Positions 14,047-64,000 of a stretch of 64,000 nucleotides of DNA are shown piece after piece (position 1 is the first letter of the stretch; every line of letters begins with the position of its first letter). The notes under the pieces were generated by a model. That model made no database searches and was not told where the DNA came from. It worked only from the letters and a program-made list of their open reading frames with translations. Source of the DNA: Flavobacterium tibetense (GTDB lineage: Bacteria > Bacteroidota > Bacteroidia > Flavobacteriales > Flavobacteriaceae); NCBI RefSeq assembly GCF_003293845.1, contig NZ_QLST01000004.1, positions 124,001-188,000 on the forward strand. The letters are read 5' to 3'. The position numbers and the translations under genes are program-made.

Positions 14047-14052
14047 TAGATT

Positions 14053-14814
14053 ATGAGTGCAGCAAAAAACATCAATATAAACCTTAAAATTTGGCGTCAA
14101 AAGAACGCTAGTTCAAAAGGGAGCATGGAAACTTATAAATTAGATAATGTTTCTACTGCAAGTTCGTTTTTGGAAATGTTAGACCAATTGAACGAGCAAT
14201 TAGTAAATGAAAAGAAAGAGCCTGTAGCATTTGATCACGATTGTCGTGAAGGAATTTGTGGAATGTGTTCTTTATACATCAACGGACGTGCTCACGGACC
14301 TGATACGGGAATTACAACCTGTCAGTTACACATGAGAATGTTCAACGATGGTGATACGATTTATATCGAACCATGGAGAAGTAAAGCATTTCCAGTGATT
14401 AAAGATTTAGTAGTAGATAGATCTGCTTTTGATAGAATTCAACAAGCTGGAGGTTTCGTTTCTGTAAATACTTCAGGTAATACTATCGATGCGAATTCTA
14501 TTCCAGTTCCAAAAGACGATGCGGATAAAGCGTTTATGGCAGCAGCTTGTATTGGTTGTGGAGCTTGTGTAGCTACTTGTAAAAACGGTTCTGCGATGTT
14601 ATTCGTGGGAGCAAAAGTGTCGCAATATGCTTTGTTGCCACAAGGTAAAGTAGAAGCAACTCAACGTGTTTTAAACATGGTACGTCAAATGGACGAAGAA
14701 GGATTCGGAAATTGTACCAATACTGGCGCATGTGAAATCGAATGTCCAAAAGGAATTTCGTTAGAAAACATTGCACGTATGAACAGAGAGTTCTTAAAAG
14801 CAAGTGTTAAGTAA
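14053..14814 (+). CDS. sdhB: Succinate dehydrogenase/fumarate reductase iron-sulfur subunit
   Basis: A 253-residue protein with three cluster motifs. Cys64, Cys69, Cys72 (CREGICGMC) and Cys90 bind the [2Fe-2S] cluster. [11 protein letters not shown] (166-176) and [11 protein letters not shown] (221-231) serve the remaining clusters. It transfers electrons from SdhA to the SdhC quinone site. It is the last gene of sdhCAB and is followed by a strong terminator. Confidence 0.97.
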
Positions 14815-14838
14815 TTAGTTGCTTTTCAAAATAATCTA

Positions 14839-14873
14839 AAACGCATTCATTCATTTGGATGCGTTTTTTTTTG
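14839..14873 (+). terminator. Terminator of sdhCAB
   Basis: ACGCAT (14841-14846) pairs with ATGCGT (14859-14864) and is followed by a run of T. Confidence 0.75.
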
Positions 14874-14896
14874 TATTTTTAAACCAAATTAAACAC

Positions 14897-15661
14897 ATGA
14901 AAATCGCATTATTTCAAACCAAATTAGCTTGGGAAAACCCAGAAAAAAACAGAAAGTTTATAGAAGAATACGTTGTAAACGAAACACAGATGTTCGATTT
15001 ATTAGTGCTTCCTGAAATGTTTACTTCTGGATTTACCATGAATCCCCAAAATGTAGCCGAAGCTATGAATGGGCAAACCATTAAGTGGATGCAATCATTG
15101 GCAAAAATGAAAAATTGTGCCATCACCGGAAGTTTGGTCATTGAAGAAGATGGGAAGTATTTCAACCGCATGGTTTTTGTGTTTCCAACAGGCGAAATGG
15201 AATATTATGATAAACGCCATTTGTTTACTTTGGCTGGTGAAAATCAAAAATATCAAGCTGGGAAACAGAAGAAAATTGTACAGTATTTAGATTATAAATT
15301 TTGCTTACAAGTGTGTTACGATTTGCGTTTTCCGGTTTTCTCAAGAAATGTAGAAGATTATCATGTAATGCTTTATGTAGCCAATTGGCCTAAGCCAAGA
15401 ATTAGTGCTTGGGATGCCTTATTGAAAGCTAGAGCTATCGAAAATATGTGTTATACCGTTGGTGTGAATAGAATTGGCTTAGACGCTAACGAACTGGAAT
15501 ACGTAGGTCATTCGCAGGTAATTGATTATTTAGGAAATATCGTTGTTGATTGCGAGTCGGAACAAGGAATTTTTATCTACGAATTAGATAAAACCACCAT
15601 GATGACTACACGTCAAAAGTTGAATTTCTTAAACGATCGAGATGCGTTTGAAATATGCTAA
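14897..15661 (+). CDS. Nitrilase-superfamily amidohydrolase (omega-amidase-like)
   Basis: A 254-residue carbon-nitrogen hydrolase starting at ATG 14897. The catalytic triad is visible as Glu in LPEMFTSGF, Lys in YDKRHLF and Cys in QVCYDLRFP. GVNRIGLDANELEYVGHSQV is typical of YafV/Nit2-like omega-amidases, which hydrolyse alpha-ketoglutaramate and related amides. It is cytoplasmic. The gene is convergent with the next one and their ends overlap by 4 bp, so antisense read-through is likely. The substrate is inferred from family only. Confidence 0.88.
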   Translation: MKIALFQTKLAWENPEKNRKFIEEYVVNETQMFDLLVLPEMFTSGFTMNPQNVAEAMNGQTIKWMQSLAKMKNCAITGSLVIEEDGKYFNRMVFVFPTGEMEYYDKRHLFTLAGENQKYQAGKQKKIVQYLDYKFCLQVCYDLRFPVFSRNVEDYHVMLYVANWPKPRISAWDALLKARAIENMCYTVGVNRIGLDANELEYVGHSQVIDYLGNIVVDCESEQGIFIYELDKTTMMTTRQKLNFLNDRDAFEIC

Positions 15662-50381: not shown

Positions 50382-50469
50382 GGTGCAAAAATACGTAAAA
50401 GCGGTTTAAAGTTAGCAATTTTGTTTTTTGAAGCGAAAGTTTCTGTTATTTTTGTAATCCATTTTCCTG

Positions 50470-50545
50470 CTTTCCGTTGCAATCTTTTTTAATTCTTTCA
50501 GGTTTAAAACGTTGAAAGAATTAAAAAAGGATTTCCACTACAATC
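50470..50545. repeat. Long hairpin element upstream of mce
   Basis: A perfect 16-bp stem (50485-50500 with 50513-50528) encloses a 12-nt loop. It is bracketed by similar direct words CTTTCCGTTGCAATC (50470-50484) and TTTCCACTACAATC (50532-50545). It is non-coding and lies between divergent rbfA and mce. It could be a mobile hairpin repeat, a terminator-like element or a structured leader of mce. Confidence 0.6.
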
Positions 50546-50579
50546 AGGGCTAGATGGTAATCCATAAACCTTTTGCAAA

Positions 50580-51032: not shown

Positions 51033-51106
51033 GGTCCTATAGCTCAGTTGGTTAGAGCACCTGACTCATAATCAGGTGGTCCCTGGTTCGAGCCCAGGTG
51101 GGACCA
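51033..51106 (+). tRNA. tRNA with anticodon CAT (tRNA-Ile2 or elongator tRNA-Met)
   Basis: A 74-nt tRNA. Acceptor GGTCCTA/TGGGACC, D arm with GCTCAGTTGGTTAGAGC, anticodon stem CCTGA/TCAGG with loop CTCATAA, T arm CCTGG-TTCGAGC-CCAGG. CCA is not encoded. C-G pairs at positions 4 and 5 resemble the lysidine-synthetase (TilS) determinants of tRNA-Ile2 in E. coli, so Ile2 is favoured, but Met cannot be excluded. It appears to be the attachment site of the downstream island. Confidence 0.93.
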
Positions 51107-51115
51107 CAAAGAAAA

Positions 51116-51151
51116 CAAAGGCTTTACAGAGATGTGAAGCCTTTGTTTTTT
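51116..51151 (+). terminator. Terminator of the CAT-anticodon tRNA
   Basis: CAAAGGCTT (51116-51124) and AAGCCTTTG (51137-51145) are followed by T7. Confidence 0.8.
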
Positions 51152-51220
51152 TATCAGGTCAAACATAGGTCAAACATTATTGAATATTCAATATTTTTAT
51201 CTTTCAAAACCATTGATAAT

Positions 51221-52108
51221 ATGTTGCCTGAAAGTCTCAAATTTTACTACGATTTAGCTTTTAATGAAAGTCAAGATATTTTATTATCTGATTTTTTAAA
51301 TAATACAGAACTTTTAGAAAAAGGATTTGATTACATTCCAGATAATGACTGCTATTTATTGACTAATTTAATTGAAGCAGGTGAAAAATTTGAACTGCAT
51401 GTTGTTAGTATAGACAGAAATGATTTTGCAAAAAATAAATTAAAAGTATATAAAAATCAATTATTTGATTACTTGTATACTAATAACTTTTGTTTAATTG
51501 ATGATGAAAAAAATAAATTCTTCAACAATATTTTTGATGAAATTTATTTAATATTTAAGAAGATTAATATTTCCAGTAATAAAAATCAAGCTATTATTCA
51601 AAAGGAAATTAATGAAGTTGTAGAAGAGATTTATTCCTTATATGGAGATGTTTCTAAAACCCACAAATTATTCAGAAGTTTACTTCTCAACAGAGCTAGT
51701 GCTAATACATCAAAAACGTATTTTGGATTAAAGCCAGATATTAAAAAATCTTTTTTAGTTGAGCTTTATGACTTGTGTGTAGATTTATTTTTGATTGATG
51801 ACACATCATTAACTGAAGATAGTTTTATAGAAGTGTTTAGCTGCACAAAGCCAAGTTCATCAGCCCATATTCAATTTGTTGAAAAAAATTACCCTATAGT
51901 TGTTTTACTAGAGGGAATACAGCCATTCTTTGAAAATCTAAATTTCATGACAATTGAGAAAAGTCAAATGTTTTCTAACAAACAACATAAACTTTTAGCA
52001 TCAAATGATATGTATGCAGTTAAATCACGTAACAAAAACAATCAAGACCCTTTGATAGAAGAGATAAATGAGAGAATTGAAGAACTTAAATCAACTCATT
52101 TGAAATAA
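51221..52108 (+). CDS. Island protein of unknown function
   Basis: A 295-residue protein starting at ATG 51221 (MLPESLKFYYDLAF). A longer reading from 51098 would overlap the tRNA and its terminator and is rejected. It is mostly helical, with an acidic first half and a C-terminal block FIEVFSCTKPSSSAHIQF followed by VVLLEGIQPFF. The size and position just before an excisionase-like gene recall regulators of Bacteroidota mobile elements such as RteC-like proteins, but I see no firm motif. Probably the first gene of the island. Confidence 0.7.
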   Translation: MLPESLKFYYDLAFNESQDILLSDFLNNTELLEKGFDYIPDNDCYLLTNLIEAGEKFELHVVSIDRNDFAKNKLKVYKNQLFDYLYTNNFCLIDDEKNKFFNNIFDEIYLIFKKINISSNKNQAIIQKEINEVVEEIYSLYGDVSKTHKLFRSLLLNRASANTSKTYFGLKPDIKKSFLVELYDLCVDLFLIDDTSLTEDSFIEVFSCTKPSSSAHIQFVEKNYPIVVLLEGIQPFFENLNFMTIEKSQMFSNKQHKLLASNDMYAVKSRNKNNQDPLIEEINERIEELKSTHLK

Positions 52109-52150
52109 CCTTACATTTTACCTTACACTTTGCCTTAAGTCCCCCTTACA
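52109..52150 (+). repeat. Four CCTTA direct repeats at 11-12 bp spacing
   Basis: CCTTACA at 52109, CCTTACA at 52121, CCTTAAG at 52133 and CCTTACA at 52144. The period of 12, 12 and 11 bp places the sites on nearly the same DNA face. They lie between the unknown gene and the excisionase-like gene, where arm-type sites or iterons would be expected. Confidence 0.65.
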
Positions 52151-52201
52151 CTAACAATTTTGGGGTTTTTTTATGCTGTTTCTTTGCTTCATAATTAACA
52201 A

Positions 52202-52217
52202 GGAAAAGCGCTTTTCC
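52202..52217. promoter_or_regulatory. Perfect 16-bp palindrome (candidate operator)
   Basis: GGAAAAGCGCTTTTCC is its own reverse complement and lies 15 bp upstream of the HTH gene start codon. Its position fits an autoregulatory operator or a Xis/replication-initiator binding site. Confidence 0.5.
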
Positions 52218-52232
52218 ATAATATTTAAAATT

Positions 52233-52532
52233 ATGGAATTAATCCAAAAGTTAAATGAAATTGAGGTATTGTTAAAAAATCAGCATACCTTTTTTAAAGA
52301 GTTTTTAACTCTTAATGAAGCATCAGAGTATCTTGATCTGTCAAAGTCAGCATTATACAAGATGACCAGTAAAAAGGAAATTCCTTTTTACAATCCTGGA
52401 GGTAAAAAGATTTACTTCAAAAAAGAAGAATTGAATAACTGGATAACAAATGCCAGAGTAGATTCATCTTTAGAAGTAGAACTTGATGTTACTTCTTATT
52501 TAAGTAGAACTAACAAAAATCAAAAGTTATGA
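52233..52532 (+). CDS. HTH domain protein, excisionase family
   Basis: A 99-residue protein starting at ATG 52233 (MELIQKLNEIEVLL). The core TLNEASEYLDLSKSALYKMTS followed by KEIPFYNPGGKKIYFKKEELNNW is the winged helix of the MerR-like/excisionase HTH_17 family. Such proteins direct integrase toward excision or regulate replication genes. Its stop overlaps the next start by 4 bp (ATGA), so it is coupled to the replication-like gene. A palindrome and CCTTA repeats lie upstream. Confidence 0.88.
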   Translation: MELIQKLNEIEVLLKNQHTFFKEFLTLNEASEYLDLSKSALYKMTSKKEIPFYNPGGKKIYFKKEELNNWITNARVDSSLEVELDVTSYLSRTNKNQKL

Positions 52533-53419
52533 TAGATTTTGTTAGAATATTCTACAAGGATAAATTTAAGTTAGAAGAATCTATTATGACTGACTCAAGA
52601 GTTAATGAAGTTAATTGTGTGTTTGATTATAAGTCAGATGAGCTTAAATATCCATATAAGTCAAAAATTGAAAACGTTGAAATTAACATTACCAATAATT
52701 TAGGCTTTGTATATGGTTCATTACATAAGTTCTACAATAGTTGGAAAACAGGAGAAGAGCAAAATTACAATGATTTTACGTATTCAAATTTGATAGAAGT
52801 AATAGATTATTTATCGTTAAGAATTGTTGATTTTGACATTATTGCTTTAACTCAATTAGAAGTAGGTTTGAATCTGGACTTGGAGATTTCACCAAAAGAG
52901 TTTTTAGAAAAAAATGTTCATTTTCATAGCTTTAAAGGATTTAATCGCGATATCAATTATTCAGGTGGAGGTAAAATGTTTCAATTTGATTATACTCAAT
53001 TTTACATTAAAATTTATGATAAAGGCAAAATGTATAAACAGAAAAAAAATATTTTAAGATTTGAATTAAAACTTTTTAGAAAAAGTATGTTTCAGGAACT
53101 TGGAGTATACAATATTTCAGATTTAAGAGATAAAAATAAGCTACGAAAACTGTTTATTTTATTGACTAAAAGGTTTGATGAGATGTTAATTATTGATGAT
53201 TACAGTGAAAAAAACATTGATAAAAAAGATTTGATTTTACTAAATAAATACACAAATCCAAGATTTTGGAATAATGAAATTAAAAACAAAACAAGAACTA
53301 CAAAAGCTAATCATGTTAGAAAGTTAAATCAACTTTTAGAAAAATATGATTTGACAAATCTTAAATCAAGTTTAAAACTTCAATTACTTCAAAAGTATTT
53401 ACAATTTATAAATAATTAA
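52529..53419 (+). CDS. Putative phage/plasmid replication initiator-like protein
   Basis: A 296-residue protein. FVYGSLHKFYN, LTQLEVGLNLDLEISP, FYIKIYDKGKMY (159-170) and ILRFELKLFRK resemble, from memory, the phage/plasmid replication protein families related to filamentous phage gene II. These are rolling-circle initiators. An H-F-H triplet at 131-133 could be a HUH-type metal site and Y159 or Y163 a nicking tyrosine, but the alignment is uncertain. It is coupled to the HTH gene and followed by the integrase, so the element may replicate after excision. Confidence 0.6.
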   Translation: MIDFVRIFYKDKFKLEESIMTDSRVNEVNCVFDYKSDELKYPYKSKIENVEINITNNLGFVYGSLHKFYNSWKTGEEQNYNDFTYSNLIEVIDYLSLRIVDFDIIALTQLEVGLNLDLEISPKEFLEKNVHFHSFKGFNRDINYSGGGKMFQFDYTQFYIKIYDKGKMYKQKKNILRFELKLFRKSMFQELGVYNISDLRDKNKLRKLFILLTKRFDEMLIIDDYSEKNIDKKDLILLNKYTNPRFWNNEIKNKTRTTKANHVRKLNQLLEKYDLTNLKSSLKLQLLQKYLQFINN

Positions 53420-53480
53420 AACTTTACGCTTTTACAACATAGTATATGTGGAATTCGTAAACCTTAAAGAAATAATAGCC

Positions 53481-54731
53481 ATGGTAAATGTCAAGATAAT
53501 TTTAAGAAAAAAAGTAAATAATGAAGGATTATATCCTGTTGTTTTAAGAATTACAAAAGATAGAAAATCCAAGATTATATCACTTAATTTTAAGTGTAGT
53601 TTAAATGATTGGAATGATTCAAATAGTCAGTTTAAAAAGTCATTTCACAATCACAGCCAAAGTAACCTTGCACTAGCTAGGATTAAGGAAAAGGCATTGA
53701 AAGTAATAAATGATTTTCAGCTTGATGAGATTGACTTTACTTTAGAACAATTTGAAGAAAAATTTAGGGGTAAAGAACTTAATAAAATATCTGTTTTTGA
53801 GTTCTTCGATGAATTAATAACTGATTTAATTAAATCTGGAAGGGTTGGAAATGCAAAAGCAATAAGAGAAACTAAGCAATCATTTTTTTCTTTTTGTAAA
53901 AGGAAAAACATAGTTTTCAAGGAGATAACACCATCCATGTTAGATAAGTATGAAGTTTTTCTAAAGCAGAACAATAATTCTGATGGAGGTGTAGCTTTCA
54001 AAATGAGAGAATTACGTTCTGTTTACAATAAAGCTATTAAACAAGGTGTAGTTCAGGAAAAGTATTATCCATTTAAAATCTATAAAATCTCAAAATTGAA
54101 AATTGGAAACATTAAAAAGGCATTAACAAGAGAAGAAGTTAGGCTAATTGAAAATTTTGATGTTTCACTATATCCAAATTTAGCAGAAGGAAAGAGCCTT
54201 TTTTTGTTCTCATATTTTTGTAGAGGTATGAATTTTTACGATATGATGTTATTAAAGTGGGCTAATATTTCTGGAAATCGAATCTACTATATTAGATCAA
54301 AAACTAAAGGGAGGTTTAACATTGAAATTTTACCAATAGTTCAAGAAATACTTGATTTCTACAAAATGCAAAACTTAGGAACAGATTATGTGTTTCCCAT
54401 ATTATTAAAGGAAAACATGACTGCTACAGAGATTCAAAATAGGAAGCATAAAAAGTTAAAAAAGTTTAATAGTGATTTAAAAAAGATGGCTGAAATACTT
54501 GAAATAAACAAACCAATTTCAAGTTATGTAGCTAGACATAGTTTTGCAACAAATCTAAAGCATTCTGGAGCTGCAACTGATATTGTGTCTCAATCAATGG
54601 GGCATAAAAATGTTGCCATAACAATGAGTTATTTAAAAGATTTTGATAACGATATTATTGACAAAGAAATGAATAGGTTGGTTCAAGAAAGTGTGATTAC
54701 ACATTACGAATATTCAAGGTTTGCTGTTTAG
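53481..54731 (+). CDS. Tyrosine-type site-specific integrase
   Basis: A 416-residue integrase starting at ATG 53481 (MVNVKIILRK); the GTG at 53448 is less likely. It has an arm-binding N-terminal domain, a SAM-like core-binding domain (about 102-190) and a catalytic domain. Catalytic residues are Arg248 (FCRGMN), Lys in SKTKG, Arg352 (YVARHSFAT), His375 (MGHKN) and Tyr384 (MSYLKDF). The first His of the usual H-x-x-R box is Tyr349, a variant common in Bacteroidota integrases. It should recombine the element at the tRNA 3' end. A terminator overlaps its stop codon. Confidence 0.93.
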   Translation: MVNVKIILRKKVNNEGLYPVVLRITKDRKSKIISLNFKCSLNDWNDSNSQFKKSFHNHSQSNLALARIKEKALKVINDFQLDEIDFTLEQFEEKFRGKELNKISVFEFFDELITDLIKSGRVGNAKAIRETKQSFFSFCKRKNIVFKEITPSMLDKYEVFLKQNNNSDGGVAFKMRELRSVYNKAIKQGVVQEKYYPFKIYKISKLKIGNIKKALTREEVRLIENFDVSLYPNLAEGKSLFLFSYFCRGMNFYDMMLLKWANISGNRIYYIRSKTKGRFNIEILPIVQEILDFYKMQNLGTDYVFPILLKENMTATEIQNRKHKKLKKFNSDLKKMAEILEINKPISSYVARHSFATNLKHSGAATDIVSQSMGHKNVAITMSYLKDFDNDIIDKEMNRLVQESVITHYEYSRFAV

Positions 54732-54745
54732 CAAACCTTTTTTTA
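54716..54745 (+). terminator. Terminator of the integrase gene, overlapping its stop codon
   Basis: AAGGTTTGC (54716-54724) and GCAAACCTT (54731-54739) with a TGTTTA loop containing part of the TAG stop, followed by T5. Confidence 0.75.
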
Positions 54746-54766
54746 TTAATTCAAAAACTCAAAAAA

Positions 54767-55630
54767 ATGCAATTAAAAAAATCAGAAAGAAGTAAAGCCA
54801 AGATAAAAATGGCTTTACAAGGACCAAGTGGTTCAGGAAAATCAATGAGTGCTATTTTACTAGCACAAGGAATTACAAATGGAAATTTATCAAAAGTAGC
54901 TTTGATTGATTCAGAAAATGGTTCTGGAAACCTTTATGCACATCTAGGGGGCTACAATGTTTTAAATTTAGAAGCTCCACATTCTCCAGAGAGATATATT
55001 GAAGCAATTGAAGTATGTGAAAAAGCAGGAATGGAAGTGATAATTTTAGATTCCATAAGTCATGCATGGGATTATTTAATAGATTATCATTCTTCATTAC
55101 CCGGTAACTCATTTACAAATTGGGCAAAAATCACTCCAAGACAAAAAGCATTTGTAGATAAGATTTTACAATGTAATGCCCATGTAATTTGTACCATGAG
55201 AGTAAAACAGGATTATGTGTTGAGTGAAAAAAATGGTAAAATGGTGCCTGAAAAAGTAGGATTAAAGGCAATTCAAAGAGATGAGATAAGCTATGAATTT
55301 ACAATTGTATTTGATGTTGATAGCAAACATTATGCTACTGCATCAAAAGACAGAACTTTGCTTTTTGAAGGGAAGCCACAATTTCTAATTAATGCAAGTA
55401 CTGGTAGTAAAATTTTGCAATGGTGTAATAGCACACTTACTATAGCACAGTTACAACAGAAAATTGTGGAATGTATGACTGTTAAGGAATTAACGGATTT
55501 ATACCATGCTAATATTTCTCTTTCCACAAGTATTGAAAAAGATTTTGTCAACAAAAGAGACCTTCTTAATAATTTAACTTCAAAAATTTCAAGCAATGGA
55601 AATGGAACTTACCCTAGCACCAGCAAATAA
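54767..55630 (+). CDS. AAA/RecA-fold ATPase (phage Sak4/AAA_24-like)
   Basis: A 287-residue P-loop ATPase. Walker A GPSGSGKS is at 19-26, IDSENGSGNLYAH near 47, Walker B VIILDSISHAWDY near 91-103, and NAHVICTMRVKQDYVL follows. The layout matches phage AAA_24/Sak4-type RecA-core proteins, which bind single-stranded DNA and assist annealing. The last ~70 residues are variable. It overlaps the DUF3871 gene by 35 bp, and the two are commonly paired in Bacteroidota genomes. A role in element replication or recombination is inferred. Confidence 0.82.
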   Translation: MQLKKSERSKAKIKMALQGPSGSGKSMSAILLAQGITNGNLSKVALIDSENGSGNLYAHLGGYNVLNLEAPHSPERYIEAIEVCEKAGMEVIILDSISHAWDYLIDYHSSLPGNSFTNWAKITPRQKAFVDKILQCNAHVICTMRVKQDYVLSEKNGKMVPEKVGLKAIQRDEISYEFTIVFDVDSKHYATASKDRTLLFEGKPQFLINASTGSKILQWCNSTLTIAQLQQKIVECMTVKELTDLYHANISLSTSIEKDFVNKRDLLNNLTSKISSNGNGTYPSTSK

Positions 55631-56627
55631 CAGTATCACAATTCTTGAGAGACTTGTAGAGAAAAAAGCTCCTACTTTTTTAGAAGTAAAACAACCATTA
55701 GTATTGCCAAAACTTCCATTTATTGAAGCTAATACAGAAAATGTTAGCCTCTCTCATTTGAAAGAGAATTGTATCATACCTGTCTTTACAAAGGATAATG
55801 AAATAACTATTAGCCATCAACAATTTATAGAAACTGTTTTAGAAGCAGTTAGTCAAGTTTTTGGAAATGAAACCATTGAATCTCCTGAAATCAGAACCAG
55901 TCATTTGATAAGAGGAAGAACTCCTGATGCACTTCATGTTCCTGCTAAAGAGCTGTTAGACCACCAGAAAACCATGTATTATGAAAGAATGGCTTTTTGC
56001 ATTAAAATCCCTAGCATTGCTCAAGATGTTGGCGGAAACAGGCTAGAATTGACAATTGGAGGGGTGAGAGCCTATAATCAAGAGAACTTGTACAACAAAA
56101 AGACATATGAAAAATTCAAATTTTTTATTGGATTCAAAAATATGGTTTGCTGTAATTTATGTATTTCTACTGATGGTTACCAAAGTGAAATCAAGGCAAT
56201 AAGTAATTATGATCTTTTGGAAAAGGTAAAACTTACAATTCAGCAATACAAAATGGAGGAGCATGTTGCAACCTTGAAAAACCTTAACAATTTCCAACTT
56301 TCAGAAAGGGAATTTGCTCAAATTATTGGTAAAAGTAAACTGTATAATTACCTGCCAAAAAATGAAAAAGCACATATACCTGAGTTGCTTTTGAATGATG
56401 GGCATATTAATGCTGTAGCAAAAGACTACTATAATGATGAAAGCTTTTGTAGAGATACAAATGGTGACATTAACCTTTGGAAATTTTATAACTTATTAAC
56501 CGGAAGCAACAAATCTTCCTACATTGACACTTTCCTTTCAAGAGGAGTGAATGCCTTTGATTTCAGTAAAGGCATCTCAAAAGCACTAAGTGATGGTGAT
56601 TCCAACTATGCTTGGTTTTTGAGTTAA
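55596..56627 (+). CDS. DUF3871 family protein
   Basis: A 343-residue protein. CIIPVFTKDNEITISHQQFIE, SHLIRGRTPDA, ELLDHQKTMYYERMAF, GFKNMVCCNLCISTDGY, FAQIIGKSKLYNYLP and NLWKFYNLLTGSNKSSYID are hallmarks of DUF3871, a family of unknown function from Bacteroidota. Its length is full. The conserved CCNLC and GSNKSSYID blocks could be functional sites. It overlaps the upstream ATPase gene by 35 bp and ends the plus-strand module; the residues suggest a soluble, cytoplasmic protein. Confidence 0.88.
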   Translation: MEMELTLAPANNSITILERLVEKKAPTFLEVKQPLVLPKLPFIEANTENVSLSHLKENCIIPVFTKDNEITISHQQFIETVLEAVSQVFGNETIESPEIRTSHLIRGRTPDALHVPAKELLDHQKTMYYERMAFCIKIPSIAQDVGGNRLELTIGGVRAYNQENLYNKKTYEKFKFFIGFKNMVCCNLCISTDGYQSEIKAISNYDLLEKVKLTIQQYKMEEHVATLKNLNNFQLSEREFAQIIGKSKLYNYLPKNEKAHIPELLLNDGHINAVAKDYYNDESFCRDTNGDINLWKFYNLLTGSNKSSYIDTFLSRGVNAFDFSKGISKALSDGDSNYAWFLS

Positions 56628-56784: not shown

Positions 56785-57654
56785 TTAATCTATATAACCA
56801 ATTTCATTTGTGATTATATTTTTAAGTACTTCATTTTCAGAATGCTTGTCAAAAGTTTCTTTTATCTTTTCTTGCATTTCATTTTTTCTGTCATTTGAAA
56901 TTTGTTCTAAAATATATAGAATTACTTTTATTGATGAATCAAGAGAATGTCTATTGTTATTGTTAAAAGTTATTCCAGGTATTGCAGATATTCCTTTAGG
57001 TAATCTAAGGTCAAAAAGGACACCACCATGAGCACAAGTATTCCTAATATAAACAATAGTTTCCATTAGATTAATAAATTTATCAATGTTGATAATACCA
57101 TATTCATTAGCAATTCTCTTTTTTATTTCACTATCCAAAAATGATTTATAAATTTTTAAAATTGTTCCAAAAGTAAAAAACTCAAGGGTTTTCCACGCAG
57201 GAGCAAATTTGTCATTAATGTATTTTTGATGATGAAGTTTTATTACTTTGTTGTTTTTTTTAAATTCATCATTATAGTGATTTTCAACAGCATTAATAAA
57301 TTCAGAATTAATTACCTTTGGATCTATAAACCAAGTTGGAGAATTTTTGTGAGTGTTTGAGGCGTAATAAACAACTTTTGTTCTAAAGTTTATTTCAATT
57401 CTGTTCATGTACTTAAGAAGTATGTTTCTCAAATCAACATCTAAATAGTATAATAAAACAGCATTTGAAAACTTAGTCCCTTTTGCAAAATTATGGTCTT
57501 TATCAATTTCAAATGGATTCCAATAAAAGCCAAGCCTATAATAACCAATATCTAATAAAAACTCTTTGATTTTGTCTTTGTCATAATCAAGCTCCATTCC
57601 TCTTTCTTCAAGCTTCACTATTTGCTCATTAAAATTTGTTGCCTTATTGCCCAT
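56785..57654 (-). CDS. Abi family protein (Abi_2/AbiD-AbiF-like, HEPN)
   Basis: A 289-residue Abi_2 family protein. LLDIGYYRLGFYWNPFE near residue 35 and RIEINFRTKVVYYAS near 85 are family motifs. IRNTCAHGGVLF (203-214) holds the R-x4-H of HEPN ribonucleases (Arg204, His209). Lactococcal AbiD/AbiF relatives abort phage infection, probably by RNA cleavage. It is transcribed with mcrB and mcrC on the minus strand, 72 bp beyond mcrC, forming a defence block within the island. Confidence 0.88.
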   Translation of the reverse strand: MGNKATNFNEQIVKLEERGMELDYDKDKIKEFLLDIGYYRLGFYWNPFEIDKDHNFAKGTKFSNAVLLYYLDVDLRNILLKYMNRIEINFRTKVVYYASNTHKNSPTWFIDPKVINSEFINAVENHYNDEFKKNNKVIKLHHQKYINDKFAPAWKTLEFFTFGTILKIYKSFLDSEIKKRIANEYGIINIDKFINLMETIVYIRNTCAHGGVLFDLRLPKGISAIPGITFNNNNRHSLDSSIKVILYILEQISNDRKNEMQEKIKETFDKHSENEVLKNIITNEIGYID

Positions 57655-57726: not shown

Positions 57727-58956
57727 TTAGTTTTTAACAACCAGTTTATCAAAAATATCTTGAGATAAAATTCTTCCTTCCCTCACTTTTGAACCATTTA
57801 AAACACTTACAAAACCTAACTTACATTTCTTTTTTAAGTCGTTATAATGATATTCTCCAAACTTACTATCCTCTTGATTGACTTTTGGATATAAAAGCAT
57901 ACTTTTTTCAGCTTTCCAGTGTAAATTATAGGTAAACATCTGTTTTAAATCATCATCTGCTGGTTTATTTGCTTCAACAATTTTCCACTTTGTATCAATA
58001 ACAAATATTTCTCCTGTATTAGAAGTAATTACTATGTCAGGTCTAATTGTTTTTGTTTCCCAAAAGTCTTCTTTATTTTGAAATGAAATTTGATAGCCTT
58101 CTGGCTTGTGTTTTTGTAGTATTCTATAAATATACTCTTCCCATAACTTATTCATGTCAAACAATAAGGTTAGCATATTATCATTTCCTGAATTTAAGTT
58201 AGGAGAATAATTTAAAATCAACATTTTTGCTATATCAATAGATTTTAAATAAGGTCTTGTTTTTCTATCAGTATTTAGTTTGTTAAAATGTGATTTATTA
58301 ATGTTTAATTGCTGGTAATCTTGGAACTCAAACAACAATCTGTTTAATTTATCTTTTAAATGATTATTTAGTAAATCCTCTAAAACTAATAATCCTCTGA
58401 ATAATATTTGATGGATTAAATGGTCTTTGTCATAAACTTGGTGTTCACAATAAAACCTTTCTTTATGAACTACATTTTTTTGAATATTTTGAGAGAAAAC
58501 TAATTTACCTTTTAATGCATTTTGATTGCTTTGAACTCTTCTGTATTTTTTGATTAATCCCTTTTTTACAAGGCTTTCAATTTCATTTAAGTACATTTCA
58601 AAATACACTTCTAAAATAGAATTGTATTTTTTATTAAGGTTAGTTTCTGAAACATTATCTACTTGAATGTGTTTACAAACCTTAAGCATGTTTAGTAATG
58701 CATTTTGCCAAGTTCCCTTGTCAGGGTTATCACTTTTGTCTGCTTTTGGAAGTATCTCAATTGTTAAACTACCTATTTGAATTACACCAACATAACTATT
58801 AAATAAAACTCCTTTGTGAACTATAGTAAAGTACTTGTTTTGGTTCTTTTCATTGAATAGAACCATTGCATCAAAATGATTTTTTTTGAAATCTGAATTT
58901 TCATCATATTTCAATTTTTGATATTCAAATACCTGTATGAAGTTCTTTTTACTCAT
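57727..58956 (-). CDS. mcrC: McrC-like nuclease subunit of a modification-dependent restriction system
   Basis: A 409-residue McrC family protein. The N-terminal domain includes HKGVLFNSYVGVIQIGSLTIEILPK. The PD-(D/E)XK nuclease appears as RPDIVITSNTGEIFVIDTKWK, with Asp307, Asp321 and Lys323. McrC binds the McrB GTPase ring and cleaves DNA carrying modified cytosine. Its start overlaps the end of mcrB by 8 bp, so the pair is translationally coupled. Length and motifs look intact. Confidence 0.9.
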   Translation of the reverse strand: MSKKNFIQVFEYQKLKYDENSDFKKNHFDAMVLFNEKNQNKYFTIVHKGVLFNSYVGVIQIGSLTIEILPKADKSDNPDKGTWQNALLNMLKVCKHIQVDNVSETNLNKKYNSILEVYFEMYLNEIESLVKKGLIKKYRRVQSNQNALKGKLVFSQNIQKNVVHKERFYCEHQVYDKDHLIHQILFRGLLVLEDLLNNHLKDKLNRLLFEFQDYQQLNINKSHFNKLNTDRKTRPYLKSIDIAKMLILNYSPNLNSGNDNMLTLLFDMNKLWEEYIYRILQKHKPEGYQISFQNKEDFWETKTIRPDIVITSNTGEIFVIDTKWKIVEANKPADDDLKQMFTYNLHWKAEKSMLLYPKVNQEDSKFGEYHYNDLKKKCKLGFVSVLNGSKVREGRILSQDIFDKLVVKN

Positions 58957-61423
58957 AGATAGAAATGAAATCTTTTGCTATTAAATTATCACAGTTTTTA
59001 ATTTGATACATTTTCTTTTCAGTCAAGAAACTTGTATCCTCATAAGGAGTGAATTTTGCTAATTTAGCTTTGCTTTCTTTTTTCTCATCTATAAAAGCTT
59101 CTCCTAAAACTAAACCTATTTTACCAAAATCACCAAAAAAGTACTCTTCTAAAAGAGGAATAATTTTATTTTTAAATACAGATTTTAATTCCTCTAATTT
59201 TTTGAGGTTTATAAAAAATGAATGTCCTATTTGATGGTCTTTATCAATTAACAATTCTATCCTATCATTAATTGTTGTTAGCATTTGAGTTAAATTAATT
59301 TCTTTTGCATCTTCAATACTCACAAGTTCTAATAACTCAGGCTTTGAAGACATTTCTACAAAAGAAAATCTTCTTCTTAATGCAGTATCTAATGCTTCAA
59401 CACTTCTATCAGCTGTATTCATTGTGCCAATAATGTACAGATTATTTGGTACTGAAAATTTGTCTTGAGAATAAGGTAATATCACTTCTATTTCTTCTCT
59501 GTTTCCTTTTCTTTTATCCTCTTCAAGTAATGTTATTAATTCTCCAAAAACAGATGAAACATTACCTCTGTTTATTTCATCAATAATTAGTACATACTTT
59601 TTTTCAGCTGTACTGCTATTTATCTTTAGGTTATGTTTTTCTTTTAAATATTGAATTACACTGTTTACATACCCTTCCCATCCATTAAATTCCTGATGAC
59701 CATTAACTTGCTTGAAGAGTTTCTCTTTTGTAAGTGTTCCTTGTTTATTTATGTTTTCAGATGTAAATAGATTTAGATTATTATTAGAATTAACATTAAC
59801 TCTAAAAGTCTTGTTTTTAGGTGTTGTAAGAACTAAATAGTCATTGTCTTTCTCTAAAATTTCTTTTACCAAATTACTATATGCTTCTTCAAAATTTGAA
59901 TCATTTTTAACATCTGCATATCCAGCTATTTGTTTAAAAATACCATCTTTAACTTCATATTTTATTTGATCATCTACATTTTCAGGTTTTATTCCTTCTA
60001 TGAAATCTTCATAGCTCAAACTTTGATGAAAAGTGGTAAAATGAATCTGGTTTGATTTTACTAAATCTTTATATCTATTTAAAATTACATCTCTGTCTTT
60101 TTCTGTCTTATCTTCATAGCTTTTGTCATCTATTAACTCAATAGCTATCTTTTTTGTTGAATAGGTTTTTCCTGTTCCTGGTGCACCAAAAAGTATTTGA
60201 TTTAATGCTTTGTTTTTAGAAGTTCCTTGCATTTTGTCATTAGTGTTTGAAGATGTTGTACTTTTTAATTCAGATTCAATTTTGTTTAATGTTTCCTTTT
60301 TAGAAAGGTTATAAAATGTAGTTTGTGGACCATCAGAAATTACAAAATTTGAAATATCTTTTTTTAAAAACTCAACTTCTCTATAATGCGAAAATGGTTT
60401 TGTATCATCAAAATTATAATCTGTAATTATTTTACCAATTGCCAAAACTGAATTTCCATCCATTAAAGTAAAAACATCATTAATAGCGGCATTAGAATAA
60501 AAATCATAAATTTCTCCTGCTTTCCTTGAACATGTTTTTTTATCTTTAAATTCATACCCTGCTTCTGTTAACAATTCCTGAATTTTATTTCTATCTTCAA
60601 CCTCTTGCTCTTCTAAATCACCAATTTCATTCCAACCAATTGCTATATAATTTTCATTCAACATTTGGTTATAATATGAGTTGTTTCCATCATTACTTCC
60701 TATTCTCCAATATTTTTTACCTTCATTGAAATGACTAGCAATGGTGTATATGAAATCTTGTGTCAGTAGATGAAGATTATCATCATTGTAATTTTCAGTT
60801 TCAGAAGTAAATTTTTTATAGGTATTAATAAAATCAGAGTCTTTTTTTATAAAGTCTAAAACTTCATTAGAAAGATCAAGGAAGTTTAAAAGATTATTGT
60901 AATCTCCTGCCTTAACTTTTGGTAATTCAAGTTTTAAGCTAAAGTTTTTAAACATAGTAAACTTATACAAAAAGTACTTTTCAGGGTAATGTAAAGTTAG
61001 GTATAGTGCAATAGCTCTAAAGTCTTTATGACTGTGATAGTTTATCTTTTTATCAGGAACTAAACTTTGAAGTTCAGGAAGTTTTGAATCATAAAACTTT
61101 ATGAAATTTTTTATTCTCTCCTTTAGTTCAATTTCTTCATTGAATAAATTATTGAATTCATCAATAGTCTCTTCTTTAAAGTTTTCAAACATCCAAAGAG
61201 TATGTTTAGTAGGGTAAAAGTTACCACTTTCCCATAAATTCCTTTTCCCTTCAACAATAAAAGCATTTTTATACATTTCTGGAATATCTTCAGCATTCCA
61301 GTTCCATTTACTATAAACTTGATTTAAAACACCCCATTTATATTTCTCTTGGTGTTCTGATTTTGGAAGTTCAAAATATCTTTTATAGTCTTCCCAATAT
61401 TTTTGGAGTTTAGTAATATTCAT
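58949..61423 (-). CDS. mcrB: McrB-like AAA+ GTPase with EVE-like reader domain
   Basis: An 824-residue protein. Residues 1-235 are helical with no named domain. Residues about 238-360 (YWRIGSNDG, YIAIGWNEIGDL, VLAIGKIITDY, FSHYREVEFL) look like an EVE/PUA-type modified-base reader. The McrB GTPase follows: Walker A GAPGTGKT (413-420), Walker B VLIIDEINRG (611-620), the McrB signature NTADRS (669-674) and arginine finger LRRRF. It should recognise modified DNA and drive McrC cleavage. The EVE call is inferred from sequence pattern. The gene upstream has been disrupted by IS21. Confidence 0.88.
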   Translation of the reverse strand: MNITKLQKYWEDYKRYFELPKSEHQEKYKWGVLNQVYSKWNWNAEDIPEMYKNAFIVEGKRNLWESGNFYPTKHTLWMFENFKEETIDEFNNLFNEEIELKERIKNFIKFYDSKLPELQSLVPDKKINYHSHKDFRAIALYLTLHYPEKYFLYKFTMFKNFSLKLELPKVKAGDYNNLLNFLDLSNEVLDFIKKDSDFINTYKKFTSETENYNDDNLHLLTQDFIYTIASHFNEGKKYWRIGSNDGNNSYYNQMLNENYIAIGWNEIGDLEEQEVEDRNKIQELLTEAGYEFKDKKTCSRKAGEIYDFYSNAAINDVFTLMDGNSVLAIGKIITDYNFDDTKPFSHYREVEFLKKDISNFVISDGPQTTFYNLSKKETLNKIESELKSTTSSNTNDKMQGTSKNKALNQILFGAPGTGKTYSTKKIAIELIDDKSYEDKTEKDRDVILNRYKDLVKSNQIHFTTFHQSLSYEDFIEGIKPENVDDQIKYEVKDGIFKQIAGYADVKNDSNFEEAYSNLVKEILEKDNDYLVLTTPKNKTFRVNVNSNNNLNLFTSENINKQGTLTKEKLFKQVNGHQEFNGWEGYVNSVIQYLKEKHNLKINSSTAEKKYVLIIDEINRGNVSSVFGELITLLEEDKRKGNREEIEVILPYSQDKFSVPNNLYIIGTMNTADRSVEALDTALRRRFSFVEMSSKPELLELVSIEDAKEINLTQMLTTINDRIELLIDKDHQIGHSFFINLKKLEELKSVFKNKIIPLLEEYFFGDFGKIGLVLGEAFIDEKKESKAKLAKFTPYEDTSFLTEKKMYQIKNCDNLIAKDFISIYE

Positions 61424-61456: not shown

Positions 61457-61752
61457 CTAAACTTCTTGGTTTTTGAAAACCTCATACTTTTCCAGTTTAT
61501 GCTTATTAAGAACTGTGTTGATTTTTTTTGATATTACTGAATTTGTTACAAGTTCTTTATCTTTTTTATCTATTGAAAGATTTGAAATATTAAATTGAAA
61601 TTCTGAAATATCCATATTTTTTTTATCAGGAAATTCAAACTCAATTACACATGTTCCATCACAACCTAGTTTGTCAAATCTATATTTAAATTTAATAGAT
61701 TTTAATTGTATAAATTGATGATTCTCTTTTTGAGTGCAAATTCCAGTGATAT
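61457..61752 (-). pseudogene. 3' remnant of a gene cut by IS21, upstream of mcrB
   Basis: About 98 codons stay open from the IS21 boundary down to TAA/TAG at 61457, ending 33 bp before mcrB on the same strand. The residues (IKFKYRFDKLGCDGTCVIEFEFP and on) do not match a family I know. Reading further upstream enters IS21 terminal repeats, giving a spurious start at 61807. The native 5' part should lie beyond the right end of the IS. It may have been a partner of McrBC, or an unrelated gene; expression of mcrB may now depend on an IS-borne promoter. Confidence 0.7.
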
Positions 61753-61848
61753 TGACCACCCAATTCCAATTTAAAGTGACCACCTGATTCCAATTCAAAA
61801 TGACCACCTAATTTCGGAGCAAAATGACCACCTCCATTTTTCATTAAA
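61753..61848. repeat. IS21 left-end repeats, TGACCACC every 24 bp
   Basis: TGACCACC occurs at 61753, 61777, 61801 and 61825, exactly 24 bp apart. The bases between the copies are also similar in the first two units (ATTCCAATT). These are the multiple terminal transposase-binding repeats expected at an IS21-family end. They fix the left boundary of the IS at about 61753. Confidence 0.85.
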
Positions 61849-61894
61849 AACTACATTTTTTCTTGTGTTAATTTGTGATTCAAATATACTAAAA

Positions 61895-62632
61895 TTACTC
61901 TTTGTTAATTCCTCTTTTCTTTCTCATGGATTCGCCTAGTAATTCAATGCGATGGGATTGATGTATGAGTCGGTCTAAAATGGCATCAGCTATGGTTTTT
62001 TCTCCGATTATATCGTACCAACCTTGTACTGGTATTTGAGAAGTTACGATTATAGAACCATTATTGTGTCTATCTTCAATGATTTCCAAAAGTGTAATTC
62101 GGTTTTGACTATCTAACGCTTGAAGTCCAAAATCGTCTAATATAATGACGTCTTGTCGTTCTATTTTGGCTAATTCTCTCAGATAAGAACCATCGGCTTT
62201 AGCCATTTTTAACTTAGCGAATAACTTAGATGTGTTATAATAACTGACTTTATATCCTTGGATGCAAGCTTGATAACCTAATGCGGTTCCTAAAAAACTT
62301 TTACCTACTCCTGTACTTCCTGTGATTAATACATTCTGATTTTTCTCAACAAAATCGCATGCAGCTAATCTCAACACCACGTTTCTATCCAGATTGCGTG
62401 AAGCATCAAAATTGATATTTTCAATATTAGATTTGTAATGGAATCGAGCGTTTTTAATACTTCTTTCAATGCGACGATTGTGTCTTTCATCCCATTCAGC
62501 ATCAATGAGCATTGCGATAAATTGGTCTAGCGTGTAATGATCTGTTTTTCCACTTTCAATAGCGGTTTTAAAAGCGTTATGCATGCCATAAAGCTTCATT
62601 TGTTTCATTTTGGTTGTGGTGATTTCATTCAT
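61895..62632 (-). CDS. istB: IS21-like element helper ATPase IstB
   Basis: A 245-residue DnaC-like AAA+ ATPase. Walker A is LITGSTGVGKSFLGTALG; Walker B is DVIILDDFGLQ, followed by sensor IIVTSQIP and the arginine-rich AILDRLIHQSHRI. IstB helps the IstA transposase select target DNA and assemble the strand-transfer complex. The length is normal. It lies 17 bp after istA in the usual istA-istB order. Confidence 0.95.
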   Translation of the reverse strand: MNEITTTKMKQMKLYGMHNAFKTAIESGKTDHYTLDQFIAMLIDAEWDERHNRRIERSIKNARFHYKSNIENINFDASRNLDRNVVLRLAACDFVEKNQNVLITGSTGVGKSFLGTALGYQACIQGYKVSYYNTSKLFAKLKMAKADGSYLRELAKIERQDVIILDDFGLQALDSQNRITLLEIIEDRHNNGSIIVTSQIPVQGWYDIIGEKTIADAILDRLIHQSHRIELLGESMRKKRGINKE

Positions 62633-62649
62633 AAGTATTTGATTTTAAT

Positions 62650-64000
62650 TTATTTGTAATAGTTTTTTCCTCTGATGTTGTTGTGATTTGGTAATTCAAA
62701 TTCTTCTTCTTGCTCATTCTCAGCGTTGTCTAAGTTGTTTTCTAAAATGTTTTGGATGGCTTTAAAACTGTAAATCCTAAAATCGAGTGCACGTTTACAA
62801 GCGTTGATTAATCGTTGTTTTCCTACTTTCTTCTCAAAGTTTAGTATTCCTAAACAACTTTTATATGCTTGCTCTGGATGATTTCTACTTTCGATAATTT
62901 GGATAATATAATCCGCTACAGCTTGGTCAATACTGTTTGCCCAATCAATAAAACGACTAGCACTCCAATCAGCAACAAACTGATGCGTGCTAGCTAAATG
63001 TTCAGCAATAGTTGTGTAATGGTAAGGTTTGTAATTTCTGGGATGAATAGCGATTCGGTTGTATTTGTAGAAGATTTCAACCGAAGTTTTGGTATACAAA
63101 AGTTTTACTTTTTTTCTCACGTATTGGTACGGAACACTGTAATAACTCTTGTCTTGACTTAATAATGCATGACCGTTCTGCATTACTGTAGCGAAGGATT
63201 GGTACTTGATTTCAAAACGTTCTTGAGGTAATGGACGTAGTTTTTGCTTCTCATCTTCTATAAATAATTCATAGCGAGAATACGGTCTTCCTGTGAGCTT
63301 TTTGTGATTATGAACATCTAATAAATCCCATATTTGTTGATTTAATTCTTCCAAACTATAGAACTGTTTTTGTTTTAGATGTACATAAATTCTTCGATAC
63401 AAGATTTTTACAGCTCCTTCTACCAATGATTTATCTCTTGGTTTGTAAGCTCTTGCAGGTAATATGGTAGTTTCGTAATGCTCTGCTAAATCGGCTAAGG
63501 TTTCATTAATTGTAGGTTCAAAACGACTACTCTTAATTACGGCTGACTTTAGATTATCGGGAACAATTGCCGCAGGAACACCTTCAAAAAAACGCATAGC
63601 ATTCTCTACCGAAGTCACAAAATCTTCTTTTTGTTGACTCATTGAAGCTTCTGCATACGTGTGTTGACTTGCGCCTAGTATGGCAACAAAAAACTGAACT
63701 TCTTTAATCTCTCCTGTATCTTTATCAACAATAGAAAGTGTTTTTCCAGCATAATCCACATACATTTTATCACCTGCTTTGTGATTCATGTGCATTACTG
63801 GATTAACGCGTTTACCCCATATTTTAAAGTGATGTCTAAATTGAGAACTCTTAAAACCATCAGGGTGTATAGCAATATATCGCTCCCACATGTGCTGGAC
63901 GGTAACACCAACTTTCTTGAGTTCGCGTTCCATTTGTGGAAAAAAATCATGAAGCTTTTGTAGTCTAGGATCTATGCTTTCAACAGTATTCTGTGAAAAT
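62650..64000 (-). CDS. istA: IS21 family transposase IstA (N-terminus outside window)
   Basis: The frame is open to position 64000. An ATG at 63933 is internal: the codons before it (QNTVESIDPRLQKLHDFFPQ) read as normal IstA sequence. The DDE catalytic residues are Asp in YVDYAGKTL, Asp in VPDNLKSAV and Glu in KSLVEGAVKILYRRIY. Full-length relatives have about 515 residues, so roughly 65 may be missing with the N-terminal HTH. It cuts and joins the IS ends. Confidence 0.95.
   Translation of the reverse strand, partial: FSQNTVESIDPRLQKLHDFFPQMERELKKVGVTVQHMWERYIAIHPDGFKSSQFRHHFKIWGKRVNPVMHMNHKAGDKMYVDYAGKTLSIVDKDTGEIKEVQFFVAILGASQHTYAEASMSQQKEDFVTSVENAMRFFEGVPAAIVPDNLKSAVIKSSRFEPTINETLADLAEHYETTILPARAYKPRDKSLVEGAVKILYRRIYVHLKQKQFYSLEELNQQIWDLLDVHNHKKLTGRPYSRYELFIEDEKQKLRPLPQERFEIKYQSFATVMQNGHALLSQDKSYYSVPYQYVRKKVKLLYTKTSVEIFYKYNRIAIHPRNYKPYHYTTIAEHLASTHQFVADWSASRFIDWANSIDQAVADYIIQIIESRNHPEQAYKSCLGILNFEKKVGKQRLINACKRALDFRIYSFKAIQNILENNLDNAENEQEEEFELPNHNNIRGKNYYK

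Follow-up and report, generated by a model that had tools for sequence, protein, structure and literature searches.

The 64,000-nt stretch of the Flavobacterium tibetense genome analyzed here (the window; bases 124001–188000 of contig C34, NZ_QLST01000004.1, in a 2.74-Mb assembly of 56 contigs) carries an integrated element behind a tRNA-Met(cat) gene (51033–51107, + strand; ARAGORN), the target of the integration. Six genes follow the tRNA on the + strand: orf1, an Xis-like helix-turn-helix (HTH) protein, a replication protein (Rep), a tyrosine integrase (Int), a RecA-fold ATPase, and a DUF3871 protein. A first-pass annotation had listed these genes, the first of them as an unknown open reading frame (ORF), and had grouped them as a compact tRNA-integrated element of 5.5 kb. 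All six are present in the order that it gave, and the integration itself is borne out by the end repeats and the empty site described below; its extent is larger.

Ends and extent of the element

The left end of the element, attL, is formed by the last 45 nt of the tRNA-Met gene (51063–51107, + strand). Searching the genome with this tRNA end returned one other perfect copy, at positions 37311–37355 of contig C13, and it is here that the right end, attR, which the first-pass annotation had proposed to seek beyond the window, was located. The repeat is exact over its 45 nt and can be extended on neither side; direct repeats of a tRNA 3′ end, as expected of a tRNA island, are found at both ends, one on C34 and one on C13. 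Past DUF3871, the coding strand flips and the element runs on through AbiD, McrC, McrB, and a piece of GapS4b (approximately its last 85 residues) into an insertion sequence (IS), presumably an IS21. Contig C34 stops at the edge of this IS21, 379 nt beyond the window, and the same IS21 terminates contig C13, where 214 nt separate it from the 45-nt copy. Outside that copy, C13 continues with housekeeping genes, which we take from their sequences to be those for riboflavin synthase, pdxA, rpmF, fabH, accB, and accC. If the two contigs are joined through the shared IS21, as we infer, the element measures at least 13,531 nt, one repeat included. The 5.5-kb set is thus a genuine left module, but the idea that its six genes form a free-standing element was rejected, as the far end lies 13.5 kb away.

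The 2645-nt overlap of the two contigs proves nothing by itself, because six contig ends share the IS21 at 100% identity (window 61735–64379, the start of C34, C6, C13, C16, and C17); as proof of the join it was discarded, and it is synteny that carries the connection. A search with the left flank of the window fetched 30 loci, one of which is the window's own copy, leaving 29 for comparison. Three of these (L154, L155, and L156), from genomes of the same genus, have an empty site, in which the left flank of the window leads through the tRNA into the right flank on C13 without interruption, at 74–75% identity across some 1.57 kb. Ten further loci keep this order with partial identity, 15 match at the tRNA end only, within the DNA compared, and L171 does not match. 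The collinearity of L154, L155, and L156 across the site indicates that a single insertion lies between attL on C34 and attR on C13, and excludes the interpretation of the C13 copy as an unrelated repeat. A Flavo-1 RNA (RF01705, 78.6 bits) at 50459–50555 on the − strand, to the left of the tRNA, is unrelated to the element.

Gene content

Rep (52529–53419, + strand) has no match above cut-off in Pfam, PHROG, or NCBIfam. An AlphaFold model of the protein, built from 21 aligned sequences, has a mean confidence (pLDDT) of 91.2, and its best solved match by Foldseek is RepDE of Staphylococcus aureus (4cwe_A, E 2.5e-7); the Geobacillus initiator 4cij is also recovered. Comparison by VIA (Z 12.2, root-mean-square deviation 4.3, 230 residues aligned) places 4cwe, 4cij, and 4cwc in the top rows with Z 11.6–12.2, well separated from the first unrelated row at Z 6.0. 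The model thus predicts the Rep_trans fold of rolling-circle initiators, in agreement with the first-pass description of a replication-initiator-like gene; we call the protein Rep_trans-like because the fold agrees with that family and the sequence model does not match. All 21 aligned rows share Tyr163, which lies within a K-x-Y-D-K motif. Among viral sequences, two inovirus proteins lie below E 1e-4 in a comparison with named viral models, and the protein has one weak match in the phage collection (E 3e-4) and two weak matches in IMG/VR.

The RecA-fold ATPase (54767–55630, + strand) belongs to AAA_24 (PF13479, E 8.5e-19) and matches phrog_124, the family of Sak4-like annealing proteins (E 1.5e-9), as well as phrog_1366. 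The Sak4 protein of phage HK620 is described as RecA-like, with an annealing activity that its single-stranded DNA-binding protein stimulates (PMC5928155). The neighboring DUF3871 protein (55596–56627, + strand; PF12987, E 1.4e-134) gave a model with a pLDDT of 81.3, whose best BFVD match is unnamed (E 1.6e-6) and is followed by rows named DUF932 from E 3.3e-6, with TM scores of about 0.4; the predicted fold therefore resembles that of phage and plasmid DUF932 proteins. The best solved relative by VIA, a group of actin-capping proteins at Z 7.1, was judged a chance match and rejected. Sequence searches of the PDB with orf1, Rep, and DUF3871 returned only chance-level matches or designed proteins. 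In the open-access literature searched, DUF3871 is named in one paper, on iron stress. Two short records labeled “Bacteriophage sp.” (L149, MT839478.1, and L150, MT840031.1) encode DUF3871, the former together with a Sak4-like ATPase, and may be fragments of elements rather than phages.

The tyrosine integrase (53448–54731, + strand) has the domains Arm-DNA-bind_5, SAM_5, and Phage_integrase (PF17293, PF13102, and PF00589). The Xis-like protein (52173–52532, + strand) matches HTH_17 (PF12728, E 6.7e-14) and, above cut-off, TIGR01764; its true start is probably at 52233, since its homologues are about 100 residues long. With Int, the Xis-like protein, and the att repeats, the element has the excision and integration genes and the attachment sites expected of an integrative and mobilizable element (IME). 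Between the tRNA and the first gene lies a paired repeat, AGGTCAAACATAGGTCAAA, with 11-nt spacing (51156–51174, + strand), a candidate arm site for the integrase or excisionase; the AGGTCAAACATAGGTCAAA pair is also found at both ends of the related loci L203 and L210, and variants of it occur in L211, L217, and L113. The product of orf1 (51221–52108, + strand), of about 295 residues from an ATG at 51221, has no family match and evolves fast in a conserved position, related proteins being encoded by 23 ORFs across 88 loci.

The cargo lies on the − strand and consists of an AbiD/Abi_2 abortive-infection protein (56785–57654; PF07751, E 3.6e-45; PADLOC AbiD, E 2.3e-48), a McrC-like subunit (57727–58956; PF10117, E 1.4e-62), a McrB-like AAA subunit (58949–61423; PF07728; NCBIfam McrB model at E 4.7e-37, below cut-off), and a C-terminal fragment of GapS4b (61457–61735; profile positions 271–355), which is cut by the IS, scores below cut-off as a fragment (NF047934, E 4.4e-18), and is the sole NF047934 match in the genome. 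The 2645-nt IS repeat follows on the same strand (61735–64000, and on to 64379), with istB at 61895–62632 and istA from 62650; the names IS21, istA, and istB are presumptive, taken from the two genes without a family search. Copies of this IS break the assembly, and an ORF that begins inside the IS extends into the fragment of GapS4b.

Relatives of AbiD, McrC, and McrB account for 8, 5, and 8 ORFs, respectively, in the 88 loci. A set of 108 of the 117 cargo ORFs of the relatives (nine were dropped, comprising the longest and those of near-duplicate loci) matches, as a set, 384 PADLOC families at E ≤ 1e-5, and among the top 25 families listed the leaders are type III restriction (7 members), AbiD (6), and type I restriction (4). 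As a control, 108 of the 131 ORFs in the flanks of these loci (two were dropped, and the final 21 by locus order were omitted to equalize the number) match 80 PADLOC families, with no more than 2 members each among the matches listed; this control also holds defense genes, namely mad2, mad3, and mad8 (2 members each) and type I methyltransferase and specificity models. By homology, the middle of the element is a swap zone for anti-phage systems, occupied here by AbiD, McrBC, and a GAPS4 remnant.

Relatives and their replication genes

One genome per species was scanned with the DUF3871 alignment, which yielded 147 relatives; the best 80 of these and 7 viral contigs make up the 87 loci compared, which include close relatives, so that frequencies among them are not population estimates. 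The integrase and sak genes lie upstream of DUF3871 in 72 of the 87 loci, and the full order xis-rep-int-sak4-DUF3871 appears in 20, among which are some closely related loci; this recurrence indicates that the gene set is not a chance arrangement. The first-pass annotation had suggested a search for the same gene order in other genomes, and the five-gene order is indeed found there, and so is not unique to this genome. At 54 of 67 testable loci, a tRNA on the same strand ends no more than 1.2 kb from the first core gene, and the tRNAs are of nine types (Met 21, Asn 16, Asp 5, Arg 4, Ala 3, Gly 2, Val 1, Pro 1, and His 1). At the level of DNA, sak-DUF3871 is present in 42 of 299 genomes of the genus, the present one included. 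A search with Rep only matches 18 of 249 genomes of the family, again including this one, and 2 of 18 loci read from the other Rep-matching genomes have xis, rep, int, sak, and DUF3871 in order, one being the L114 contig.

Exact att repeats of 39–47 nt were found at both ends of seven of the 87 loci (L100, L104, L113, L118, L133, L136, and L139) and of four of 15 loci of the genus (L203, L210, L211, and L217). The 15 genus loci were picked from the best DNA matches, and five probably duplicate members of the 87 (L203/L070, L206/L068, L207/L095, L209/L073, and L211/L065). The eleven relatives so delimited span 9.5–18.3 kb. Their usual plan comprises the left module at the tRNA, variable cargo that is often on the opposite strand, and a right module composed of a protein of about 133 residues and RadC; L104, with a different gene order, and L100, with its tRNA on the opposite strand, fit this plan less well. 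Of 81 loci, 50 have the first ORF of at least 150 codons past DUF3871 on the minus strand. Where at least 9 kb of downstream DNA is available, the ~133-residue protein is found in 35 of 66 loci and both it and RadC in 27, and all 15 genus loci have both.

L148 (NZ_OY725960.1), annotated as a circular 15.5-kb “plasmid” of Bacteroides finegoldii, encodes DUF3871, two integrases, and an Eco57I-type gene, and is possibly the circular form of a related element; terminal repeats that would indicate circular contigs were found in none of 12 small contigs. The cargo of L136 includes, at 12619–14931, a Multi_ubiq/Prok-E2_E protein followed by a gene for 449 residues, with ThiF among the families in the same scan, and this is possibly a bacterial ubiquitin-like operon. 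The DUF3871 contigs L117 and L132, filed under Bifidobacterium breve and Oscillospiraceae metagenome-assembled genomes, probably reflect binning contamination.

The rep gene is present in 21 loci, and loci without it often have instead DUF3987 (12 loci), a protein of about 815 residues (17), one of about 270 residues (8), or one of about 497 residues (4). DUF3987 mostly occupies the place of rep, in the gap between xis and int, and the ~815-residue protein lies between int and sak. Two DUF3987 proteins that were tested match the DNA primase family phrog_3022, and the one ~815-residue protein tested alone, from L118, matches a DEAD helicase. Among the 61 rows with a recognized type, the window included, rep is found in 22, the ~815-residue protein in 17, and DUF3987 in 12, and no row has two of these three. 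The count for the ~270-residue protein includes two of its 8 loci in which it stands beside rep (L065 and L067), and on account of this co-occurrence it may not belong to the replication slot.

On the DUF3871 tree, at least 30 changes of replication type are needed for the 61 labeled rows (200 shuffles: mean 32.8, minimum 26), whereas the integrase tree needs 14 for 58 rows (200 shuffles: mean 31.0, minimum 27). The change count on the DUF3871 tree, which is close to random, is inflated by weak resolution (23 of 84 inner branches are open and long branches are flagged), which may explain part of the difference. The contrast between the two trees suggests block-wise exchange of the mobility and recombination halves of these elements.

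Probable damage, mobility, and affinities

In terms of its right-hand module, the F. tibetense copy departs from its genus relatives. The ~133-residue protein was not found in this genome by a search that was positive in all five control genomes carrying the module, and the sole RadC match of the genome is a 229-residue open frame on another contig, C3. Because the genus relatives end in the module missing here, this copy is probably IS-damaged. Its right end also lacks the GGTCAAAC pair that is present at the left end. About 130 nt inside attR, where relatives carry the GGTCAAAC pair, inspection by eye reveals a different pair with the same 11-nt spacing, AACACACAGATTGCACACAA, which the repeat scan did not choose as its best repeat. 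The 214 nt before attR match no right end among the loci compared and hold the start of a minus-strand ORF (MYNYSKDGITIASILDW...) that is cut by the IS; its 22 residues have a weak 18-residue match in L138 (E 8e-4) and otherwise chance-level matches, and the ORF could be a lost cargo gene. A deletion between IS21 copies, perhaps of two tandem elements, would explain together the missing right module, the end lacking the pair, and the lack of a target duplication.

We consider it probable that the locus holds one copy, itself probably damaged, of a compact Bacteroidota family of integrative elements in which Int and Xis would provide mobility, Rep replication, Sak4 and DUF3871 a fixed pair, and the middle a swap zone for defense genes, with spread through a helper. 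Several observations weigh against this interpretation. The Rep protein of the window has no match to the Rep_trans model of Pfam at E ≤ 0.1, and at E ≤ 0.01 Pfam detects neither this nor another Rep family in the 21 aligned members; a more distant homologue, L048, has lost the conserved tyrosine motif. At 13 of the 67 testable loci, no tRNA stands where one is expected, and L148, the one circular DUF3871 record, has no tRNA-type att match at E ≤ 0.01. No circular form of the present element was seen, and, as its right end lacks the GGTCAAAC pair, this copy may be unable to excise now. The join of C34 and C13 crosses a multicopy IS, so that extra DNA may lie between two IS copies, and no IS21 target duplication linking the flanks on C34 and C13 was seen by eye.

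The strongest competing explanation, which we place a little short of an even chance, is that this copy is an immobile remnant: a defense island retained for McrBC and AbiD after the right module was lost. The absence of the ~133-residue protein, the position of the only RadC match on another contig, the right end without the paired repeat, and the interruption of GapS4b by IS21 all favor it, but the six core genes are all open and the att repeats identical, so that this copy may still be mobile. It is rather unlikely that the locus is a fusion of two tandem elements, with the left end and cargo of one and the right end of the other brought together by IS21 recombination. Such a fusion would account for the different repeat pairs of the two ends and the missing target duplication, and the genome has several IS21 copies; however, the right 214 nt resemble no compared right end, and the AACACACAGATTGCACACAA pair is the one that the repeat scan passed over.

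The manner of transfer was addressed with Pfam, PHROG, NCBIfam, and PADLOC scans of the joined element, in which no phage structural gene, canonical relaxase, or type IV secretion system (T4SS) gene was recognized. Eleven relatives were scanned as well, seven with repeats of at least 39 nt and four (L098, L109, L111, and L125) with repeats of 17–26 nt and less certain ends. No terminase, portal, capsid, or transfer family is among the 23 Pfam families of their 73 plus-strand non-core proteins, and the 10 scanned out of their 36 minus-strand proteins either went unmatched in Pfam or fell into restriction, AAA, TonB-receptor, and peptidase families. Tail-fiber matches in PHROG are single members among the best 25 of 55 families, and in Pfam the set also matches Collagen and LRR domains. 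A prophage is rejected, as no structural genes were recognized in the joined element or in the Pfam matches of the scanned relatives, and an integrative and conjugative element is rejected for want of a recognized T4SS in the joined element. The first-pass annotation had reported no capsid, conjugation, or relaxase gene in its 5.5 kb and had named phage structural or conjugation genes at the far end as the observation that would overturn it; no structural or conjugation gene was recognized in the joined element, and the statement stands for those classes in the element and the Pfam matches of the scanned relatives. Its “no relaxase” is unsafe, because Rep_trans proteins also act as MobT relaxases.

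The MobT relaxases of Tn916 and ICEBs1 are Rep_trans proteins that, once the element is excised, replicate it as well, and 45 of 144 Streptococcus IMEs encode Rep_trans/MobT-type proteins (PMC5704250). The element could by this token be a noncanonical IME, in which the Rep_trans-like protein, sharing that fold, would be a MobT-type relaxase, perhaps also replicative, and the circle would be moved by a coresident conjugative element. We regard this as doubtful: no coupling protein was recognized, no PF03432 relaxase was found in the genome (1 of 14 control genomes was positive; other relaxases and T4SS were not searched genome-wide), and in many relatives rep is replaced by a primase or helicase, from which relaxase activity is not expected. 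It is likewise improbable that the element is a PICMI-like satellite that relies on a tailed helper phage to package it, either whole or as concatemers. In its favor, 247 records of the phage collection contain relatives of the Sak4-like ATPase, DUF3871 is predicted to fold like phage DUF932 proteins, and small size combined with defense cargo resembles PICMIs, which lack capsid-remodeling genes (PMC10803314). Against it stand the absence of terminase, portal, and capsid families from the Pfam matches of the scanned relatives and of Terminase_6N from the genome (6 of 14 control genomes were positive; other terminases were not searched genome-wide), and the seven IMG/VR contigs matched give no evidence of packaging.

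Among known systems, the AICEs of actinobacteria resemble the element in having a tRNA site, Int and Xis, and an exchangeable replication gene, but carry an FtsK/TraB transfer gene, none of which was recognized here. Tycheposons are small tRNA-integrated elements with replication genes, cargo, and a presumed helper, in another phylum and with other genes. The name tycheposon appears in PMC11389934. The Streptococcus MobT/Rep_trans IMEs share a tyrosine integrase, sites at the 3′ ends of tRNAs or genes, a Rep_trans-type protein, and the lack of a T4SS (PMC5704250), and differ in that the present family has a Bacteroidota host, the Sak4-DUF3871 pair, and relatives in which rep is swapped for a primase or helicase. 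The IMEs of Bacteroides of the NBU1/Tn4555 type share the phylum and a tyrosine integrase but encode MobP relaxases (PMC5704250), none of which was recognized in this element. PICMIs share compactness, an excision and replication core, and defense genes (PMC10803314); as far as the excerpt shows, their genes differ and they lie next to fis, whereas the present element has a rolling-circle-type Rep and tRNA sites. Nearest, by description rather than gene content, may be the 10K genomic island of Riemerella anatipestifer, a 10-kb island adjoining tRNA-Arg with a tyrosine integrase and a circle seen by PCR (PMC6764341). The first-pass remark that it knew of no described system with exactly this content agrees with the open-access literature only: in what was searched there on integrative elements of Flavobacterium, satellites of Bacteroidota, islands of Flavobacteriaceae, and defense islands of Bacteroidetes, no description of this gene set was found, which is weak evidence of absence.

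Returning to the integrative-element family that we favor, Int has placed the element at the tRNA 3′ end, as the att structure and the empty site attest, and Int together with the Xis-like protein would excise it. The Rep_trans-like protein, judged by its fold, would nick the excised circle and begin rolling-circle replication, and the Sak4-like ATPase and DUF3871, joined in intact relatives by the ~133-residue protein and RadC, may process or anneal the single-stranded DNA. The cargo, by homology, would give the host anti-phage defense, and spread would depend on a helper, since no transfer machine was recognized in the element. In the F. tibetense copy, the right-hand module would have been lost to an IS21-linked deletion, which probably also left the cognate right end trimmed or replaced.

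The mobility of anti-phage islands is often unexplained; here, the defined ends, the empty site, a plausible initiator, and many relatives of the same plan make excision, replication, and helper dependence directly testable. DUF3871 and the ~133-residue protein can now be viewed in a specific setting, next to a Sak4-like annealing ATPase. We are evenly divided on the broader proposition that these loci represent an undescribed and widespread Bacteroidota family of tRNA-seated elements of 9.5–18 kb that have a fixed Sak4-DUF3871 pair, a right module of the ~133-residue protein and RadC, a defense swap zone, a helper route, and a replication engine that can be exchanged (for rolling-circle Rep, a DUF3987 primase/helicase, or a large helicase). 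If it is true, such elements would be a main vehicle of tRNA-linked anti-phage islands in the Flavobacteriaceae.

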